Shown here in pieces: positions 33,258 through 43,719 of a stretch of DNA of 64,000 nt. The translations under genes and the position numbers were made by a program. The notes beneath the pieces were generated by a model. The model was given only the letters and a program-made list of their open reading frames with translations, was not told the DNA's origin and did no database searches. The stretch comes from Saprospirales bacterium (GTDB lineage Bacteria > Bacteroidota > Bacteroidia > Chitinophagales > Saprospiraceae): assembly GCA_002698985.1 (NCBI GenBank), contig PAAY01000014.1, positions 1 to 64,000 on the forward strand, read 5' to 3'. Numbering within the stretch: the stretch's first letter is position 1; every line of letters starts with the position of its first letter.

Positions 33258-33302
33258 CCCAAACCGCCGGTCATTTACTCACGAAATCGCTAATTGAAAG
33301 AA

Positions 33303-36300
33303 ATGCATTTCCGTTACATCCCATTTACTATCCTGCTACTTACCAGTTGGGCACTTCAAGCCCAGACACCCCAGAACATCAGCATCCCGCCGGGTGCCAC
33401 CATTCAAAACGTTTCCAGCTTTGCGGCCTGTGCCGACCAGTTTGCCGGAACGGTGCATTTTGAAGATGAATTTGGAAACCCTGTTGTGGAGGACACCTTT
33501 TTCCTCTGCTTCGGTGAAATTCTGAACATCGTGCACAATGGTGACGCCGACCTGACGGGTGATCCCGATCCCGGCACCCAGCCGGGAATCACCTATGCAA
33601 TTCTGGACTGCCCACCGACGGTTTCCGGACCCAACCTCAGTACGATCATAACGGATCCATGCCTGACCACAACGCCGCCCCCGGCGATGGGCATCTGGGC
33701 GGTTTCCGGAGGTTCGGCCAACGGAAATATCCAGTTCAACAACTCCGGTCAAATTCAGAACTTTTACAATGGTGGCAATCCCGTCTTGAAATGGTTTGCC
33801 CCCCTTACCATTGACCGTTTCACCGATAAAGCATACGAACAGGACCCGGCCACCATGGAGGTAGGCCCATGCGTCAACCTCAACGTGGCGGAAGCTTTTC
33901 CGGTGGTGTACCTGAACGAGATAGACGTGAGCAACCTCAGCACCAACACCGGTGTGAGCGGTTGCCAGGGCACTTTCGAGGTGGTGGGCGGTCTGCCTGA
34001 ATTCGACGGCAGCAACTACGACATCACCATCGAGTTGGTGGGCAGCCCAGGTGTTTACGGCTACGTCGTCAACGGGCCTTACACCCACAACGAAACGGTG
34101 ACTTTCCAGGTGCCGGTGCCCGGCGTTTACGAAGTGATCGTAGCCGATGGCAAAGGCTGCCAGCACCAGTTCTTCGCCAACATGGCCAGCTGCGTCAACA
34201 CCAGCCAGAGTGCCCAAAGCATGACCGTAGCCCCTGGCGACAACATTTGTATCAACATCACCAACGAGGGCGGATTCATCGACCTGGTGTCCATGCAATA
34301 CGCGCTCAATTGGGACGACAATATCCTGCAATTCTTCAGCGTCACCAACCTGACGCCGCTGCTCCCCAACTTCACCGTTGGCGGCAGCTTCAACGCCACC
34401 AGTGATTCGCTGTTTTTCTCCTGGGCCAACCTTGCCGGCAACGGCAACAGCCTGCCCGATGGAACGGTGCTGTACCAGGTCTGTTTTGATGTCGTCGGAA
34501 CGGACGGGGAATGCACCGACCTCAACTTTGTGGCACCGCCCGGCCCGGGCATCGAAGTCATCAATGAGGCCGGGTCCTCGATCGGTTTCTTCGGAATGCC
34601 GGGTCAGGTCTGCGTTTCCAACACTGCCCTGGTGGTGGATTTCACCACCGACTCGGTCAGTTGCTTCAACAGCAACGACGGCGCTTTTACCGTGACGGTG
34701 AGCGGCGGTATGGCCCCCTATTCCGTCACCTGGCAGGATGACATGGGCGGTCCTGTACAGGGCCCCGCCACCATCAACCTCGACGGCGGCAGCTTCACCG
34801 TGCAAAACCTGACCAAAGGCACCTATACCGTGACCGTTGCCGATTCGAATGGAACCCCGGTCGTGGCCAGCGAACAGGTGACCGTGCCCGGCCCGCCGGA
34901 CATCGAGATTCTTTTCAATGAAACGCCCCCACTCTGCAACGGCGACCCCGGCAGCGTGGATGCCACCATCGTGGTGGACAGCGTTATCGTCAACAATCCT
35001 ACTGCACAATTCGATTTCCTGTGGAGCACCAACGACACCGGCACCTCCATCAGCGGTGTGCTGTCCGGCGTTTACTCACTGACCATTACAGATCAGGCGA
35101 CCGGCTGTACGGTTGAGGACAACACCTTTTTGCCCCAACCCCCGGTTCTCAACGTGCTCATCACCACCGACTCGGCCACTTGCAGCGGCATCGGCGACGG
35201 CGCCATCCATGTGGTGGTTTCCGGCGGCACACCGGATGTGAACGGCGACTACACAATCCAGTGGCCCAGCATCGGACCGGCACCGGGACTGACCCTGCAA
35301 AACACCATCTCCAATATCAACGGCCTTGAATCTGACTCCTATCCCCTTCGGGTAACCGACAGCAACGGCTGTACTTTCGAAGCCGACATCTGGCTGCCGG
35401 CCCGCAAGGTGCTCAGCATGGATGCCGTCATTCAAAACATCAGTTGCGCCGGCATTTGCAGCGGTGAGATCGCCATCACCGGAGTTTCCACTTCGGCCAA
35501 CGGCCAACCACCGTCTCTGCCGTACAACTTCGACTGGTTCGGGAGCCCGCCGCCGCCACCACCCAGCACCACAACGGCCACTTCCTCCACCACCACCAAT
35601 ATGTGCGCCGGGGTTTACACCATTGTTATGGAAGACGCCGCCGGCTGTGAAATTGACACCAGCTTCACCCTGGAAGAACCACCACAGGTGATGGTAGAGG
35701 TGTTGGAGGCCAACGATGCCTCCTGTACACCAGGCAACGACGGCAGCATCATCGTGGGCGTAACGGGTGGAACCTACCCATTCAACTACCTCTGGAACAG
35801 CATCACCACCGACAGCATCGCCACCGGACTTGGTGCGGGCTTCTATGCCGTGACGGTTCAGGATGCCAACGGCTGCGAAGACTCCACTTCTGCCACCATC
35901 ATCCAGCCGATGCCGCCGACCATTACCGCACTGGACAACGACACCCTTTCCTGCCCCAACGGCAGCGACGGCATGCTGACGGTTCAGGCAACACCCGGCG
36001 GTGCACCCATCACCCTGTATTCCTGGTCGAACAGCGCCAACGGTCCGACCATCACCAACCTGCCGGTTGGCAACTATACGGTCACCGTTACCGACGGAAA
36101 CAACTGCACCGCAGAGGCGAGTGCCCAGGTGGTGGCACCTGCACCCATGGTCATTGACAGTATTACTACCGTCGCTCCGCAATGTCCGGGTTCGGGAGGA
36201 GGCCAGATCACCGTGTTCGTAAGCGGTGGGGCAGCGCCTTACCATTTCAACTGGAGCACGGGCTTGCAAGGCGTAGGCTTCAATGTGCTGGGCGGCTCCA

Positions 36301-37910
36301 CCATCACCGCCGGCAGCTATACGGTGACCATTACCGACGACAACAATTGCGAGCCACTGGTGCAGAGCATCACCCTGCTCGATCCGCCCAGCCTGCAGGT
36401 TTCCTTCTCAGCCATCGACTCGGTGAGCTGTTCCGGAACAATGGCCGCCTGCGATGGTGGCGCTACGGCAACGGCATCGTATTCCAATGGTGACACAGGC
36501 CTCTTTGACTTTACCTGGCAAAGTGGCGAAAGCGACAACGACCTGACCAGCAGCACAGCCGTTCAGCTCTGTGCCGGCAGCCAGTTCGTCGTCGTTTCCG
36601 ACGGAATATGTTTCGATACTTTTACGGTTGACATCCCTGCTCCGCCGGCCATCCAGCCGGGCGCTGACATCACCAATGTTAGCTGTAACGGTGGTTCTGA
36701 CGGAGAGGTGACCCTGACGCCTACGGGAGGCACCCCACCCTACACCATCACCTGGACGGGCAACATCGTAAGTCCGACCCTGCCCAACCTCACAGCCGGC
36801 ACCTACATGGCCGTTATCGAAGATGCAAATGGTTGTACTTTCAACCACACCATTACCATTACGGAGCCGCCCGTACTCACTGCCAGCATCAACCAGGCCG
36901 GCACGATGGACGTGAGCTGTGCCGGTGAAAACGACGGCATCATTACGGTGGAAGTGCAGGGAGGCAACCTGCCGCTCGGCTCACCATCCTACATCTGGCA
37001 AAACGGCATTGCACCCATTACCTCCAACTTTGCGGCCGGACTGAGTCCTGGCACTTATTCTGTAACAGTGGTGGATGTAAAGGGCTGTGCCGATACGCTT
37101 ACGCACACCATTTCTGAGCCGGCTTCCATCCAGTTCAGCCTGGGTGAGGTTACACCCATTCAGTGTGCAGGAGGAAACACCTTCATCACAGTGGATTCTG
37201 TCTGGGGTGGGCAATTGAGCACCTACCAGTTTTCCGTTGACAACGGCATTCTGCGGGTTTTGGGAACCCCCAGCCCCGTATTTGCCGGAACGCATACCAT
37301 CTCCATCGTGGACGTGCTGAACGGTTGCACGGTAGACACCGTCATCACCATTTCGGAACCGGTGCCACTGAACGTGGTATTGCCGGATGTTTTGACGATT
37401 GAACTGGGAGACACCACCACGGTGCTGGATCCCGTCATCGTTTCCTCGCTGCCGATAGACTCCTTCCTGTGGACGCCTTCGGAAGAGCTGAGCTGCAGCA
37501 ATTGTAAAAACCCAACCGTCATTCCGACGGTAACACAGTTGTACACCCTCACCATCACCGATGTGAACGGCTGTACGGCCAGTGACCAGGTGCTGATCGA
37601 AATAGACCGCAACCGGAATGTGTACATCCCCAACGTGTTCTCGCCCAATAACGATGGCATCAATGACATCTTCCGGGTTTACACGGGCATCGGTGTCACC
37701 AACATCAATTTCTTCCGGGTTTACGACCGCTGGGGAGAGCTAGTTTTTGACGCCAAAGACCTGTCGCCAAGTGCCGATGGCACCATTGGCTGGGACGGCC
37801 GATTCAATGGGGAAGACATGGATCCGGCGGTATTCATGTACCTGATCGAGGTAGAGTTTCTCGACGGAAGGGTCTTGCTTTACCGTGGCGATGTGGCGTT
37901 GCTTCGTTAA
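33303..37910 (+). CDS. Giant surface protein: cohesin-like domain, SprB repeats, type B T9SS sorting domain
   Basis: The open frame starts at TTG 33294; the ATG at 33303 begins a signal peptide (MHFRYIPFTILLLTSWALQAQ), giving 1535 residues. Residues about 303-445 match a cohesin-type beta-sandwich (MTVAPGDNICINI, DLVSMQYALNWDDNILQF, LPDGTVLYQVCFDV). Then come about ten SprB-like repeats of roughly 80-95 residues with the recurring pattern VSC-GG-DG, GG-PPY, WS and GTYTVTVTD-NGC. Residues about 1440-1535 are the gliding-motility-type CTD (YIPNVFSPNNDGIND to FMYLIEVEFLDG). Such proteins are exported by T9SS and attached to the surface. SprB-type filaments serve gliding or adhesion, and the cohesin domain could hold dockerin-bearing proteins such as the one at 1-789. 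Confidence 0.9.
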   Translation: MHFRYIPFTILLLTSWALQAQTPQNISIPPGATIQNVSSFAACADQFAGTVHFEDEFGNPVVEDTFFLCFGEILNIVHNGDADLTGDPDPGTQPGITYAILDCPPTVSGPNLSTIITDPCLTTTPPPAMGIWAVSGGSANGNIQFNNSGQIQNFYNGGNPVLKWFAPLTIDRFTDKAYEQDPATMEVGPCVNLNVAEAFPVVYLNEIDVSNLSTNTGVSGCQGTFEVVGGLPEFDGSNYDITIELVGSPGVYGYVVNGPYTHNETVTFQVPVPGVYEVIVADGKGCQHQFFANMASCVNTSQSAQSMTVAPGDNICINITNEGGFIDLVSMQYALNWDDNILQFFSVTNLTPLLPNFTVGGSFNATSDSLFFSWANLAGNGNSLPDGTVLYQVCFDVVGTDGECTDLNFVAPPGPGIEVINEAGSSIGFFGMPGQVCVSNTALVVDFTTDSVSCFNSNDGAFTVTVSGGMAPYSVTWQDDMGGPVQGPATINLDGGSFTVQNLTKGTYTVTVADSNGTPVVASEQVTVPGPPDIEILFNETPPLCNGDPGSVDATIVVDSVIVNNPTAQFDFLWSTNDTGTSISGVLSGVYSLTITDQATGCTVEDNTFLPQPPVLNVLITTDSATCSGIGDGAIHVVVSGGTPDVNGDYTIQWPSIGPAPGLTLQNTISNINGLESDSYPLRVTDSNGCTFEADIWLPARKVLSMDAVIQNISCAGICSGEIAITGVSTSANGQPPSLPYNFDWFGSPPPPPPSTTTATSSTTTNMCAGVYTIVMEDAAGCEIDTSFTLEEPPQVMVEVLEANDASCTPGNDGSIIVGVTGGTYPFNYLWNSITTDSIATGLGAGFYAVTVQDANGCEDSTSATIIQPMPPTITALDNDTLSCPNGSDGMLTVQATPGGAPITLYSWSNSANGPTITNLPVGNYTVTVTDGNNCTAEASAQVVAPAPMVIDSITTVAPQCPGSGGGQITVFVSGGAAPYHFNWSTGLQGVGFNVLGGSTITAGSYTVTITDDNNCEPLVQSITLLDPPSLQVSFSAIDSVSCSGTMAACDGGATATASYSNGDTGLFDFTWQSGESDNDLTSSTAVQLCAGSQFVVVSDGICFDTFTVDIPAPPAIQPGADITNVSCNGGSDGEVTLTPTGGTPPYTITWTGNIVSPTLPNLTAGTYMAVIEDANGCTFNHTITITEPPVLTASINQAGTMDVSCAGENDGIITVEVQGGNLPLGSPSYIWQNGIAPITSNFAAGLSPGTYSVTVVDVKGCADTLTHTISEPASIQFSLGEVTPIQCAGGNTFITVDSVWGGQLSTYQFSVDNGILRVLGTPSPVFAGTHTISIVDVLNGCTVDTVITISEPVPLNVVLPDVLTIELGDTTTVLDPVIVSSLPIDSFLWTPSEELSCSNCKNPTVIPTVTQLYTLTITDVNGCTASDQVLIEIDRNRNVYIPNVFSPNNDGINDIFRVYTGIGVTNINFFRVYDRWGELVFDAKDLSPSADGTIGWDGRFNGEDMDPAVFMYLIEVEFLDGRVLLYRGDVALLR

Positions 37911-39379: not shown

Positions 39380-39615
39380 TTCCAGTGACCTAAAGGTCAC
39401 TGCTACCGGCACAGCCTGCCTGTCAGCCGAAGGCGGGAAGGCCGTGCTACTGTAACACAGCATTTATGCTGCGATAGTCCAACGACCTTCAGGTCGTAGG
39501 GATAACTTCCAGTGACCTGAAGGTCACTGCTACCTGCACAGCCTGAAGGCCGTGCTACTTTAACGCAGCATTTATGCTACCACAGGCCTAGAACCTTCAA
39601 GTCGTGGGGATAACT
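39380..39615. repeat. Two direct repeats of 108-128 bp rich in palindromes
   Basis: Copy 1 (39380-39507) and copy 2 (39508-39615) share, in order, AGTGACCT-(A/G)A-AGGTCACT, GCACAGCCTG, AGGCCGTGCTACT, CAGCATTTATGCT and CCTTCA(G/A)GTCGT. Copy 1 carries an extra 20-bp segment (TGTCAGCCGAAGGCGGG). Several parts are themselves palindromes, so the RNA or single strand would fold extensively. Confidence 0.8.
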
Positions 39616-39769: not shown

Positions 39770-39777
39770 TACCTTCG
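39770..39777 (+). promoter_or_regulatory. Candidate -7 box of the riboswitch transcript
   Basis: TACCTTCG, one mismatch from TAnnTTTG. The predicted start near 39782 falls just before the first base of the aptamer, which supports the call. Confidence 0.5.
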
Positions 39778-39783
39778 CGCCGC

Positions 39784-39945
39784 CTTTGGTTCCATGCTTA
39801 TGGATGAAAAGGGAATCAGGTGAAAATCCTGGACTGTTCCCGCAGCTGTAAGCTCCACCAAAGTGCTGCCAACCGATGGCCACTGTTTGCCGTAGGCGAA
39901 TGGGAAGGCCGGCCGCACCGGAGCAAGTCAGAAGACCTGCCAGAG
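39784..39945 (+). promoter_or_regulatory. Cobalamin (B12) riboswitch aptamer
   Basis: The conserved elements of the cobalamin aptamer occur in the right order: GAAAAGGGAATCAGGTGAAA then TCCTGGACTGTTCCCGCAGC (39805-39845), GCCACTG and TGGGAAGGCC (39878-39910) and GCAAGTCAGAAGACCTGCC (39923-39941). In such switches, binding of adenosyl- or another cobalamin reduces expression of the downstream gene. The next gene is the BtuG-like lipoprotein at 40112. Confidence 0.93.
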
Positions 39946-40001
39946 GCATAGTCCACCTTCGGGTGCGGCTATCCTTCTCAGCTTTCGGAGAAAAGGCTGC
40001 G

Positions 40002-40055
40002 AGGATCAGAATCCTGCCACGGCGTTCCTGCCGGATTCCTTCCTCCTGTTTTTTC
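40002..40055 (+). terminator. Probable riboswitch expression platform
   Basis: Two mutually exclusive hairpins share bases: AGGAT-CAGA-ATCCT (40002-40015) and GAATCC-T-GC / GC-C-GGATTC (40009-40038). The second is followed after a short gap by GTTTTTTC (40049-40056), so it could act as a transcription terminator when cobalamin is bound. The pairing was judged by eye only. Confidence 0.5.
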
Positions 40056-40111
40056 GTCATGGTGCTGAAGTTGGGGCCCGCCCAATTGTTAAACCTTTAA
40101 AACAGTTTACC

Positions 40112-41191
40112 ATGTCTTTCAAAACCCTTACCCGCCAATGGATCTGGCTGCTTTCATTCGTTGTGCTGGCGCTCACGGCCTGTAACAAAGACGACGACAC
40201 CCAGCCAGCTGACACTTTTGGCCCAGGCATTTTCATCGTCAACGAGGGGCCGTTCCAGAATGGAACAGGATCCATCAGTTTCTGGGACCGCCAAAGCGAT
40301 GTCGTTCTTCAGAGCATTTATTTCGGACTGAACGGCGAGGACCTCGGCAACATCGCTCAATCCATGACCATTGCCAATGGTCAGGCCTTCATCGTCGTCA
40401 ACAATGCCGGCAAAGTGGTGGCCGCAGACGCTGCCACGTTCATGAAAAACGGAGAGATTACCGGTCTGTCATTGCCCCGGTACATGGTGGCTTTGGAAGG
40501 CACATCCACTGCTTTTGTGTCGCAATGGGGCGCTACCGGCACCGATGGCTCAGTGGCCGTCGTCAATACGGACAACTATACCGTGACCAGCACCATCCCA
40601 ACCGGCAGCGGTGCCGAAACCATGCTGCTCGTGGGCGATGAACTGTGGGTGGCCAATTCCGGCGGTTTCGGCCGTGATTCCACCATCAGCATCATCGACG
40701 TGAACAGCCTTGCCATCAAAGAAACCATCGTTGTTGGGGACAACCCCAACAGCCTTGTGCAGGACAGCGACGGCAACATTTGGGTAATCTGTGCGGGCTA
40801 TGCCCACAACTTCGACCCCAATGACCCGCTCAGCACCCCCGGCAAACTGGTTCGCATCAGCAACAAGACCATCAGTAAAACCTTCGAACTGCCTAACGAT
40901 GCCGGCCGGCTCATCATCAACAGCCAGGGCAACCGCCTCTTCTACCTCGACAGCCGTTACGGAGGCAGGGTGTTCGATTTCTTCACCAACCAGCCCCAAC
41001 TGAATACCACGCCATTCCTGGATGGAACCTGGTATTCCCTGGGTTATGATCCCGTAGAAAACACCGTCCTTGCCGGCAACGCCGGAGACTTCTCCTCCCC
41101 CGGCAGCATGACTGTGGTGGATGCCACCGGAAACATGGTCCGCGAGGTGATGACGGGGATTATTCCGACCTTTTTCGTGGTAAGGGAATAA
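40112..41191 (+). CDS. btuG: BtuG-like surface cobalamin-binding lipoprotein (beta-propeller)
   Basis: 359 residues. The signal peptide ends in lipobox LTAC and is followed by NKDDD, an acidic surface-export signal as in Bacteroidota surface lipoproteins. The mature part is made of repeated strands typical of a YncE-like seven-bladed propeller (DUF5074-type): GTGSISFWDRQSDVVLQS, DGSVAVVNTDNYTVTS, DSTISIIDVNSLAIKET, PGKLVRISNKTISKTF. Bacteroides BtuG proteins have this form and pass B12 to the BtuB transporter with very high affinity. Function is assigned from this fold plus the cobalamin riboswitch directly upstream. Unlike Bacteroides loci there is no btuB or other uptake gene next to it; the next gene, 132 bp on, is unrelated. 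Confidence 0.8.
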   Translation: MSFKTLTRQWIWLLSFVVLALTACNKDDDTQPADTFGPGIFIVNEGPFQNGTGSISFWDRQSDVVLQSIYFGLNGEDLGNIAQSMTIANGQAFIVVNNAGKVVAADAATFMKNGEITGLSLPRYMVALEGTSTAFVSQWGATGTDGSVAVVNTDNYTVTSTIPTGSGAETMLLVGDELWVANSGGFGRDSTISIIDVNSLAIKETIVVGDNPNSLVQDSDGNIWVICAGYAHNFDPNDPLSTPGKLVRISNKTISKTFELPNDAGRLIINSQGNRLFYLDSRYGGRVFDFFTNQPQLNTTPFLDGTWYSLGYDPVENTVLAGNAGDFSSPGSMTVVDATGNMVREVMTGIIPTFFVVRE

Positions 41192-41323
41192 TTGAAAGTT
41201 TTTGAGAGGCTTTTGAGGGGTTTTTGGCTTAGCCGTTCCTTTCTTAAAAGAGGCTCGGAGTTTGGAAACCAGGTGCTGAATGCTTTGTTTTAGCCCTGGT
41301 TTTTTCATTTCAACCTCCACACG

Positions 41324-42223
41324 ATGTTCAGTAATAAATCTCCCTTCGAAAAAGCACTGATTGGCAGCATCGTCTTACATGGTATTGGCGCCATAAGTCT
41401 GTTTTCTTTTTTAATGGTTTACGGGTTCTATTTCTTTTGCATCCTTCCCTTTTTGGTTGGGTTGTTTTTTTATGATTTGGAAAACCGCTTGCACAGTATT
41501 CTTGGAATGTTTTCAGGCTTCGTCATTGTAATGGCCATCATTGCAATATTTAACCTCGAAGGGTATGCCTGTTTGTTGATGGCAACGCCAATCTTTCTTT
41601 TTAGCGGGGCGCTGGGCATACTCACCAGATGGATTTATTTCAAAATCATCAAAAAGTCTGACCATGAGAATGACAATAACCTGAGTGCTTTTGCCGTGCC
41701 GATTGTTATTTTCCTCGCAACTGGATTGATTGAAAAATATTCACTGAACGGGAATTTTTCAGTCGATACCGTTGAAACCAGTGTTGTGGTGAATGCTTTG
41801 CCGGAAGAAGCCTGGCAGGCATTGTTTGAATTTGACACCTTGAGCGGAGAAACATCAGGGTTGATTAAATTGGGACTTCCTACACCTTACAAAGCCAGTG
41901 TTGATTCGATGGCAGTTGGAGCCACCAGGATCTGTTATTTTGAACCTGGCAATATCGTTCAGGAAATTACACGGTTGGAACCCGGCAGGTTAATGGAAGT
42001 AAAAGTCATTGACTACCAGTTGGTTGGTAAAAACTGGATTCAATTCACCAAGGCTGTTTATACGCTCCACCCTGTTGACAGCAAGCGAACCGAAGTGACT
42101 CGCAGCACCAGTTATTCTTCCCAACTTTCACCCCGGTTTTACTGGCGAACCCTGGAATCTTTGGCAATCGATGCCGAACACGTCTATGTTCTGGACAACC
42201 TAAAAAGAAAACTTGAAAATTGA
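41324..42223 (+). CDS. Membrane protein with C-terminal SRPBCC (START-like) domain
   Basis: 299 residues. The first half has four likely membrane helices (about residues 12-35, 37-50, 58-78, 84-105) and a fifth weak one near 125. Residues about 145-299 look like a SRPBCC/polyketide-cyclase domain: VETSVVVNALPEEAWQALF at its start, RICYFEPGNIVQEITRLEPG in the middle and ESLAIDAEHVYVLDNLKRKL as the last helix. Such domains bind hydrophobic ligands. The codon use is a little more AT-rich than the neighbours. Function unknown; no operon partner. Confidence 0.72.
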   Translation: MFSNKSPFEKALIGSIVLHGIGAISLFSFLMVYGFYFFCILPFLVGLFFYDLENRLHSILGMFSGFVIVMAIIAIFNLEGYACLLMATPIFLFSGALGILTRWIYFKIIKKSDHENDNNLSAFAVPIVIFLATGLIEKYSLNGNFSVDTVETSVVVNALPEEAWQALFEFDTLSGETSGLIKLGLPTPYKASVDSMAVGATRICYFEPGNIVQEITRLEPGRLMEVKVIDYQLVGKNWIQFTKAVYTLHPVDSKRTEVTRSTSYSSQLSPRFYWRTLESLAIDAEHVYVLDNLKRKLEN

Positions 42224-42316: not shown

Positions 42317-42985
42317 ATGCCCAAAAAAAAGACGACCCGAATCACAAAAGCAAAACGTGAAAAGGCCGCACAGATAGCAGCCATTCTGGACGAGCTTTAC
42401 CCGGAAGTGCCCATTCCGCTGGAACATTCTGATCCCTACACCTTGCTCATAGCGGTGCTCCTCTCCGCACAGTGCACCGACGAGCGGGTCAACAAGGTGA
42501 CGCCCCATTTATTCGCACTGGCGCATACCCCGGAGGAAATGGCGCAGCAGGATGTGAGCACCATCGAGGACATCATCCGCCCCTGTGGCCTGGCACCCCG
42601 CAAGGCGAAGGCCATTTCGGAACTCTCGAAGATTCTGGTGGAGAAGTACAAGGGCCAGGTTCCGGAAGATTGGGAGGCACTCGAAGCTCTGCCAGGTGTG
42701 GGTCACAAAACCGCCTCTGTAGTTATGTCCCAGGCCTTCGGAAAACCCGCTTTTCCGGTGGACACCCACATCCACCGCCTGGCCTGGCGCTGGGGCCTCA
42801 GCAATGGCAAAAACGTGGAACAGACAGAACGGGACCTCAAGGCCCTCTTTCCCGAAGAAAGCTGGAACAAACTGCACCTGCAGATCATCTACTTCGGCCG
42901 TGAATACTGCCCCGCCCGCGGCCACGATCCCCGTCAATGCCCCATCTGCAGCAAGTTCGGCAGGAAGGAATTGTTTAGGGAGTAG
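42317..42985 (+). CDS. nth: Endonuclease III-type DNA glycosylase/AP lyase
   Basis: 222 residues; base-excision repair of oxidised pyrimidines. The helix-hairpin-helix LPGVGHKTA with the catalytic Lys and the following VDTHIHRLAWR with the catalytic Asp are clear, as is SAQCTDERVN at the N-terminal side. The C-terminal iron-sulfur loop is unusual: CPARGHDPRQCPIC gives only three Cys with nonstandard spacing, and the fourth Cys of the C-x6-C-x2-C-x5-C motif is missing before the end (SKFGRKELFRE). I recall loss of this cluster in related Flavobacteriia. The last codons and the TAG stop run into a GGAGTAG repeat. Confidence 0.9.
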   Translation: MPKKKTTRITKAKREKAAQIAAILDELYPEVPIPLEHSDPYTLLIAVLLSAQCTDERVNKVTPHLFALAHTPEEMAQQDVSTIEDIIRPCGLAPRKAKAISELSKILVEKYKGQVPEDWEALEALPGVGHKTASVVMSQAFGKPAFPVDTHIHRLAWRWGLSNGKNVEQTERDLKALFPEESWNKLHLQIIYFGREYCPARGHDPRQCPICSKFGRKELFRE

Positions 42986-43020
42986 GGAGTAGGGAGTAGA
43001 GACGTTGCACCGCAACGTCT
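42976..43020. repeat. GGGAGTA tandem repeat with AGACGTTGC hairpin
   Basis: Three heptamers TAGGGAG lead into the perfect inverted repeat AGACGTTGC-ACC-GCAACGTCT (43000-43020). The nth stop codon lies within the first heptamers. The hairpin could terminate nth transcription, but similar GAGACGTTGC palindromes are known as dispersed repeats in several bacteria. Confidence 0.8.
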
Positions 43021-43077
43021 GGCCCAGCACCCACCAATTCAACAATTCAACAGTCTCAACAATTCAACAGTCTCAAA

Positions 43078-43719
43078 ATGCCGCTTAAGGAAGCTTGTGT
43101 TGAAAGCCTGCAAGAGGCACTGGCCGCTGAGCGGCAGGGTGCCGACCGGTTGGAGCTTTGTTCCAGGCTGGAGGTGGGCGGCTTGACACCGGGTGTTGAA
43201 TTGGCACAGGAAGTACTGAATGCCGTCAGTATTCCGGTGATGCTGATGATCCGTTGCCGGGAGGGAGACTTCTGCTACTCCCCGGTTGAAGTCGATGAAA
43301 TGCTCCGGCAAATAGCGACATTCAAAGCATTGAACAGTCCTCAACTGGCAGGATTCGTCACCGGTGCGCTCACTGAAGTGGGCACCGTGGATGTGCCAAC
43401 TCTAAGCCGCCTTGCCGGTGCTGCCCAGCCCTACCCCATCACCTTTCACAAGGCCATCGATGAATGCCCGGATCCACTCGCTGCCATCCAGGTTTTGAAG
43501 ACCCTTCCAGGAATTACCCGGGTGCTCAGCTCAGGTGGTGCGTCAACAGCGCAGGAAGGAGCAGAAATGCTCATGTCCATGATCGCTGCTGCCGGAGATG
43601 ATCTGACCATCATCGCAGCCGGCAAAGTGACCCATGAAAACCTGGCCGCTTTGCACCGTTCGATCGGTGCCAGCGAATACCACGGCCGCCTGATCGTCGG
43701 CAACCTAAAACCCCTCTAA
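43078..43719 (+). CDS. cutC: CutC family protein (copper homeostasis)
   Basis: 213 residues of TIM-barrel type. The start KEACVESLQEALAAERQGAD with RLELCSRLEVGGLTPG is the family signature, and FHKAIDECPDPLAAI, RVLSSGGASTAQEG and KVTHENLAALH match the later barrel strands. CutC is linked to copper handling, though direct copper transport was never shown; some members may be enzymes. A copper-ATPase gene lies 2 kb away, but on the other strand. The stop codon TAA is formed inside repeat copy C. Confidence 0.9.
   Translation: MPLKEACVESLQEALAAERQGADRLELCSRLEVGGLTPGVELAQEVLNAVSIPVMLMIRCREGDFCYSPVEVDEMLRQIATFKALNSPQLAGFVTGALTEVGTVDVPTLSRLAGAAQPYPITFHKAIDECPDPLAAIQVLKTLPGITRVLSSGGASTAQEGAEMLMSMIAAAGDDLTIIAAGKVTHENLAALHRSIGASEYHGRLIVGNLKPL

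Follow-up and report, generated by a model that had tools for sequence, protein, structure and literature searches.

What does a cobalamin riboswitch control when the gene that follows it encodes the lid of a B12 importer and not its channel? Import by BtuB and BtuG has been studied in gut Bacteroides, in which lid and channel are encoded in the same riboswitch-controlled loci, and in B. theta btuG lies beside btuB in such loci, as described in the available parts of PMC6143338 and PMC10404256. In the genome considered here, by contrast, btuG is alone behind the riboswitch and btuB is unlinked. None of the titles and abstract openings listed from the open-licence literature on btuG, cobalamin riboswitches and Saprospira dealt with a riboswitch-controlled btuG without btuB.

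Genomes and searches

The window, i.e. the whole 64-kb stretch of DNA that was analyzed, is the first 64 kb of C20, a 100-kb contig in which the riboswitch is interior. The genome (G000) is a fragmented assembly of 4.83 Mb in 102 contigs, 95.5% complete. The comparison set comprised 120 genomes, G000 included, with a genus subset of 14; among the latter is G003, a separately titled MAG (Saprospiraceae MAG JALWSS010000188.1) with a BtuG 90% identical to that of the window, a relationship that places G000 in the Saprospiraceae. The RF00174 survey of the 120 genomes scored at most 19 candidates per genome, including in the nine genomes with a riboswitch directly before btuG, and the genome-wide search of G000 scored 150 of 284 first-look candidates.

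The riboswitch and its leader

A cmscan analysis of the whole window gave a single match at the gathering threshold, RF00174, which covers model positions 1–189 of 189 and scores well above the gathering score of 31.5 bits (Table 1); the near-consensus aptamer proposed by the first-pass annotation, which saw the sequence only, is thus confirmed by the covariance model. The two competing hairpins and T run that it described downstream were also recovered. Both hairpins use positions 39999–40006 and would therefore compete. The first is named P13/L13 after PMC9600662 (available in part), as a candidate by analogy; its loop motif recurs in 24 of 43 loci at no more than 70 nt from where the aptamer ends, versus 0.1% of letter-shuffled stretches. 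The stretch 39955–40111 is more stable than its shuffles (z −2.99; 1 of 200 as good). The hairpin and T6 arrangement is also present in the leader of G003; a hairpin with a T run does not occur in all nine leaders that run directly into btuG, G000 and G003 being alike in this respect.

Table 1. Features of the riboswitch–btuG locus (positions in the window)
Feature	Position	Strand	Evidence
Cobalamin riboswitch aptamer, RF00174 full length	39770..39958	+	cmscan 107.5 bits, E 5.9e-26
Post-aptamer hairpin, candidate P13/L13 (kissing-loop hairpin)	39971..40006	+	fold −12.4 kcal/mol; loop UUCGG..AAAA
Terminator-like hairpin (39999–40048) and T6 (40049–40054)	39999..40054	+	fold −17.2 kcal/mol
btuG, surface lipoprotein, BtuG-type beta-propeller, 359 aa	40112..41191	+	Pfam, phmmer, AlphaFold model, fold comparison
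Codon of lipidated Cys24 and lipoprotein export signal NKDDD	40181..40198	+	read from sequence
Intrinsic-terminator-like hairpin and T run 3' of btuG	41264..41305	+	fold; unflagged by simple scan

A simple terminator scan flagged neither the leader hairpin nor the one located 3' of btuG; its rules (loop of 3–8, T run 0–2 bases past the stem) probably do not suit these hairpins. By the same scan, terminators are not enriched in the region (3, versus a shuffled mean of 2.8). Simply read, the competition between the P13 candidate and the terminator-like hairpin could even suggest a switch of the opposite sign. The competing hairpins do not decide the sign of control, as polarity is not readable from the sequence.

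Upstream of the riboswitch, the region 39380–39615 contains two copies of a 39-nt repeat including the palindrome CAGTGACCTNAAGGTCACTG, for which these two places are the only ones matched in the window when up to 3 mismatches are allowed, and two copies of a 71-nt repeat with 85% identity.

The first-pass annotation had also raised the possibility of a scattered B12 regulon. This was not borne out, as no second RF00174 was found in G000 among the 150 of 284 first-look candidates that were scored.

The lipoprotein encoded behind the riboswitch

The single gene following the leader (ATG at 40112, stop codon at 41189–41191) encodes a beta-propeller with a signal peptide and the lipobox and export signal LTAC-NKDDD, read from the sequence, in agreement with the C-NKDDD lipoprotein initially described. 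According to the available part of PMC6143338, a lipobox and a lipoprotein export signal are features of BtuG. Pfam assigned the product to DUF5074 (8.3e-23), generic propeller families matching weakly, and the closest PDB sequences identified by phmmer were BtuG3, BtuG2 and close BtuG structures (3e-30 to 2e-26). An AlphaFold model built on 30 sequences had a mean pLDDT of 93.2, and Foldseek searches with this model ranked BtuG structures at the top. In VIA-align comparisons, the model was aligned to the BtuG structure 8bai with a Z of 42.5 (rmsd 1.8 Å, 308 residues), as compared with 32.9 for the archaeal propeller 1l0q and 27.7 for YncE; many further propellers fell at Z 27–33, which reflects the common fold only. 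The net charge of the mature protein, obtained by residue count, is −19, and that of BtuG2 has been reported as −18e (PMC10404256, available in part).

Of five upper-ligand pocket residues of BtuG2 named in the available part of PMC10404256, one is identical here (Y316, Y308 in the window protein), one is conservatively substituted (Y335, here F327) and three (Trp194, Tyr239 and Trp272) are replaced. In BtuG2, the corrin side chains are hydrogen-bonded by residues of blades 1–4. In the N-terminal part of the window protein, the residues N44 E45 G46, N74, G79, S84, N97, P122 and R123 are kept in relatives and common to BtuG2, and their contact with B12 is only putative.

It could be argued from the DUF5074 assignment, the weak matches to generic propeller families and the replaced pocket residues that this is an unrelated YncE- or lactonase-type protein that does not bind B12. 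We consider this reading hardly credible, given that BtuG structures score far above YncE and that a cobalamin riboswitch lies directly upstream. Grouping with DUF5074 or YncE proteins, put forward by the first-pass annotation as evidence against its own assignment, does not discriminate, since 'YncE family protein' and 'surface layer protein' are the names under which solved BtuG structures were deposited and the window BtuG is itself a Pfam DUF5074 protein. The identity proposed at the outset thus stands: by its sequence, predicted fold and lipoprotein signal, the window propeller is a BtuG.

Transcript end and neighboring genes

As had been noted from the sequence, the propeller gene is alone behind the switch. 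The hairpin and T run after btuG stand before the next gene, at 41324, and the fold of 41255–41312 (−24 kcal/mol) is more stable than all of its shuffles (z −4.89; 0 of 200 as good), so the transcript is probably monocistronic. The upstream neighbor encodes a glycosyltransferase, and the genes downstream encode a Polyketide_cyc2-like protein (a weak assignment, below the Pfam cut-off), an HhH-GPD endonuclease III-like protein and CutC. A BtuB overlooked beside btuG was considered and rejected, the neighboring ORFs of the window being other proteins.

The endonuclease III-like and CutC genes (42317–43719) also trail a riboswitch–btuB unit in four loci of genus-mates (L032, L035, L036 and L038), and one genomic slot therefore holds different B12 cargo. 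Further upstream in the window (33294–37910), a protein of 1538 aa that combines SprB repeats with a CHU_C signal for type IX secretion is likely to be a secreted surface or gliding adhesin.

Location of btuB

The canonical btuBG operon, with adjacent genes behind one riboswitch, is absent here. The best BtuB match in G000, and the one clear BtuB, is on another contig (C90:3-1985), unlinked to btuG; a second receptor, on C10, matches BtuB weakly (E 6e-14, 24% identity). The C90 protein has Pfam Plug and barrel domains and is closest, among PDB sequences, to BtuB2 and BtuB3 of B. theta (8bmx_C, 3.1e-37), with NCBIfam TIGR01779 below its cut-off (66 of 600 bits).

C90 begins near the start of btuB. 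In G003, a btuB with 80% identity follows lptD (Pfam LptD_2) on one contig, and in G000 the 3' end of an lptD 94% identical to that of G003 is at base 326 of contig C67, the edge of which has 94 identical bases in common with the start of C90 (bases 5–98). Thus lptD and btuB are neighbors in G000 too, a few hundred bases apart. lptD is a housekeeping gene. No cobalamin match at E≤1 was found in C67:1-6000, in C90 or in 16 kb around lptD and btuB of G003, nor was any found around btuB in G039 and G041. The proposal of a surface B12 binder working with a distant transporter was therefore upheld for the layout only: there is one clear BtuB, unlinked and downstream of lptD.

Given that the genome is fragmented (102 contigs, 95.5% complete), btuB could in principle lie beside the riboswitch and have been lost during MAG assembly. 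Such an artefact is extremely unlikely, since the riboswitch is inside a 100-kb contig, G003 has the same riboswitch–btuG layout with btuB after lptD on one contig, and the BtuB of C90 has its own neighbors.

Distribution of locus layouts

RF00174 was identified in 101 of the 120 genomes, including G000, with a total of 110 riboswitches when up to 19 candidates were scored per genome. The locus classes depend on the E-value cut-offs used and on contig edges; on this basis, 24 of the 110 riboswitches are followed by BtuB and then DUF4465 (22 together with G013, where BtuB is matched as two fragments, and G058, where DUF4465 is matched twice), 21 by BtuB and then BtuG, seven by loci with all three genes and seven by BtuB alone, at about 4 kb in three cases. 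One riboswitch precedes DUF4465 alone and another DUF4465 and then BtuG, and 35 have no BtuB, BtuG or DUF4465 within 6 kb. Of the three genes searched for, btuB comes first in 53 of the 110 loci, at a distance of no more than 400 nt from the switch.

The riboswitch leads directly to BtuG in nine cases, with 94–231 nt to the BtuG match, in nine of the 101 genomes. The lone riboswitch–btuG arrangement is therefore not unique to G000. Five other riboswitches (G017, G089, G102, G109 and G114) have BtuG at 1.9–4.8 kb and were not counted as direct; in G017, an ORF of receptor size (629 aa) occupies the gap between the switch and btuG. One riboswitch was found in each of the nine direct genomes, with 19 candidates scored per genome. 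Three of the nine (G002, G007 and G042) have their BtuB match next to the switch on its upstream side, six (G000, G003, G039, G041, G059 and G072) have it on another contig, and none has it downstream of the switch. The contigs of G002, G003 and G072 extend no more than about 3.5 kb past the switch. In loci L037 (G007), L033 (G002) and L061 (G042), btuB ends 44–343 nt upstream of the riboswitch, measured from match ends, and btuG comes after it, such that the switch is placed between transporter and lid.

A tree was made for the best 30 among 64 BtuG matches, some of them long branches. On it the direct layout requires five changes, at least two of which are forced by starred branches, and this implies more than one gain or loss of the layout.

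Two types of BtuB and their partners

The DUF4465 family was identified in 40 of the 120 genomes. Of the 14 genomes of the genus, four have BtuG and nine DUF4465, with no overlap, and one (G005, 80% complete) has neither. BtuB was matched (E≤1e-25) in 80 of the 120 genomes, of which 41 had BtuG only, 25 DUF4465 only, 13 both and one neither; BtuG was counted here at E≤1e-8, a threshold that may admit, among the distant and unlinked matches, some DUF5074 propellers other than BtuG, and the counts are drawn from related genomes, so that the Fisher values cannot be treated as independent.

A tree of 33 BtuBs separated a BtuG-partnered side (16 sequences) from a DUF4465-partnered side (17 sequences) with a single change and 100/99 support, although 11 end branches were long and long branches meet. 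Its rows derive from the fetched loci and represent 32 of the 80 BtuB-bearing genomes plus G017; eight of 41 rows with neither partner (G019, G021, G023, G031, G055, G074, G091 and G116) were left out, and G029, which has both partners, was labelled DUF4465 according to its riboswitch locus. The BtuBs of the BtuG type mostly have about five extra residues near the C-terminal strands, a region in which B. theta BtuB2 and BtuB3 are also long, and those of the DUF4465 type are mostly shorter there. The split in the tree and the extra residues suggest a conserved pairing of BtuB and BtuG. They also bear on the view that BtuG is a free surface binder or store of B12 and not a lid on BtuB, a view with which the unlinked position of btuG would agree: the BtuBs of genomes that have BtuG group together on one side of a split with full support, and most of them share with BtuB2 and BtuB3 the longer region, making a free binder improbable.

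The DUF4465 proteins carried a type IX secretion tail in all 15 that were scanned, from 16 fetched loci. The B. theta DUF4465 proteins bind B12 and are named BtuJ in the available parts of PMC13398666 and PMC12751083, and the T9SS-tailed protein is likely to be a B12 binder exported by the type IX system rather than as a lipoprotein. BtuH was considered as a name for this partner and rejected, since these papers use BtuJ. In Saprospiraceae relatives, a riboswitch and btuB are often followed by a gene for such a protein, as in L032, L035, L036, L039, L041 and other loci with the order riboswitch–btuB–DUF4465.

Proposed control of the lid

G000 encodes methylmalonyl-CoA mutase, MetH and a fused IcmF. 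A MetE N-terminal domain was not found in G000 or G003, and only weak matches were obtained in G001 and G007; methionine synthesis in G000 is therefore probably B12-dependent. No clear BtuC/FecCD inner-membrane permease was identified in G000, G001, G003 or G007, each of which gave one weak FecCD hit, that of G000 being an ABC-3 permease according to Pfam. These four genomes have BtuB and proteins with B12-binding domains despite this.

On the basis of layout and homology, we consider it reasonably probable that the riboswitch controls only the BtuG lid, with BtuB encoded elsewhere, after lptD, without a detected cobalamin riboswitch. When B12 is scarce, the riboswitch would permit the production of BtuG, which would reach the cell surface, form a lid on BtuB, capture B12 very tightly and hand it down. 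When B12 is plentiful, the lid alone would be repressed and BtuB would go on working at lower affinity; the riboswitch would then tune capture affinity and not switch uptake on and off. Deletion of btuG2 from a B. theta strain that lacks loci 1 and 3 led to a longer lag at 37 nM cyanocobalamin and to no growth at 0.37 nM, as given in the available part of PMC6143338, and this phenotype fits a lid that matters most in scarcity. The same source reports that the riboswitch of btuG2-deleted B. theta was not repressed at any B12 level tested, from which it follows that BtuB without its lid may transport little.

We think it rather unlikely, though far from negligible, that the genes encode an ordinary BtuBG importer, split but co-regulated, in which a diverged riboswitch or some other regulator makes btuB respond to B12 and there is no lid-only control. 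Operon 4 of B. theta has no identifiable riboswitch and its reporter responded to B12 like the others (protein ratios not significant), according to the available part of PMC12751083, a precedent indicating that btuB may be regulated even where it has no riboswitch. Co-regulation would also agree with the 53 of 110 loci in which btuB comes first after the switch, and the RNA searches scored 150 of 284 candidates in G000 and 19 in each direct genome. However, no cobalamin match (E≤1) was obtained around btuB in G000, G003, G041 or G039, each of the nine direct genomes yielded one riboswitch, and btuB follows a housekeeping gene in both G000 and G003, all of which speaks against co-regulation.

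A wider proposal, which we advance tentatively and hold to be possible rather than probable, is that of an affinity switch, in which BtuB is made regardless of B12 and the lid is added in scarcity, combined with two coevolved types of BtuB having exchangeable partners (either BtuG as a lipoprotein lid or a DUF4465 binder secreted by the type IX system) and with lid-only control that has changed hands more than once. A switch placed on the lid alone would make it possible to separate two questions that are difficult to disentangle in gut Bacteroides, namely the role of BtuB without its lid and whether it is uptake capacity or uptake affinity that is regulated. The two-partner pattern predicts that, in environmental Bacteroidota, the sequence of BtuB tells whether B12 is captured by BtuG or by a secreted DUF4465 protein.

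Comparison with known systems

The window protein has the same propeller fold as B. theta BtuG2 and BtuG3 (8bmx, 8bmy and 8okv), which is seven-bladed in BtuG2 according to the available parts of PMC10404256 and PMC6143338, and the same combination of lipobox and export signal, strongly negative charge and cobalamin riboswitch control. Common motifs are NEG, N..LG, QSM, NN and PRY. The identity to BtuG2 (8bmz) is 28% over 313 structurally aligned residues (Z 42.4), and the two differ at three of the five named upper-ligand pocket residues.

By comparison with BtuJ, a DUF4465 protein is found after BtuB behind a riboswitch in other members of the genus and family, and is absent from the BtuG-bearing genus-mates. 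BtuJ1 and BtuJ2 of B. theta have lipidation signals (PMC12751083, available in part), whereas the Saprospiraceae DUF4465 proteins that were scanned have no lipobox by eye and are T9SS-tailed.

With respect to the BtuB–BtuG 'pedal-bin' importer, G000 resembles B. theta in having a clear BtuB, the only one, with BtuB2 and BtuB3 as its best PDB matches. It differs in that the genes are split, the riboswitch appears to cover the lid only and there is no clear BtuC of the FecCD type in the four genomes of the genus that were searched. As for the riboswitch itself, it is like others of the RF00174 family in its full-length aptamer and in the downstream hairpin with a recurring loop motif, and it is set apart from them by its apparent target, which here is the gene of the lid only.
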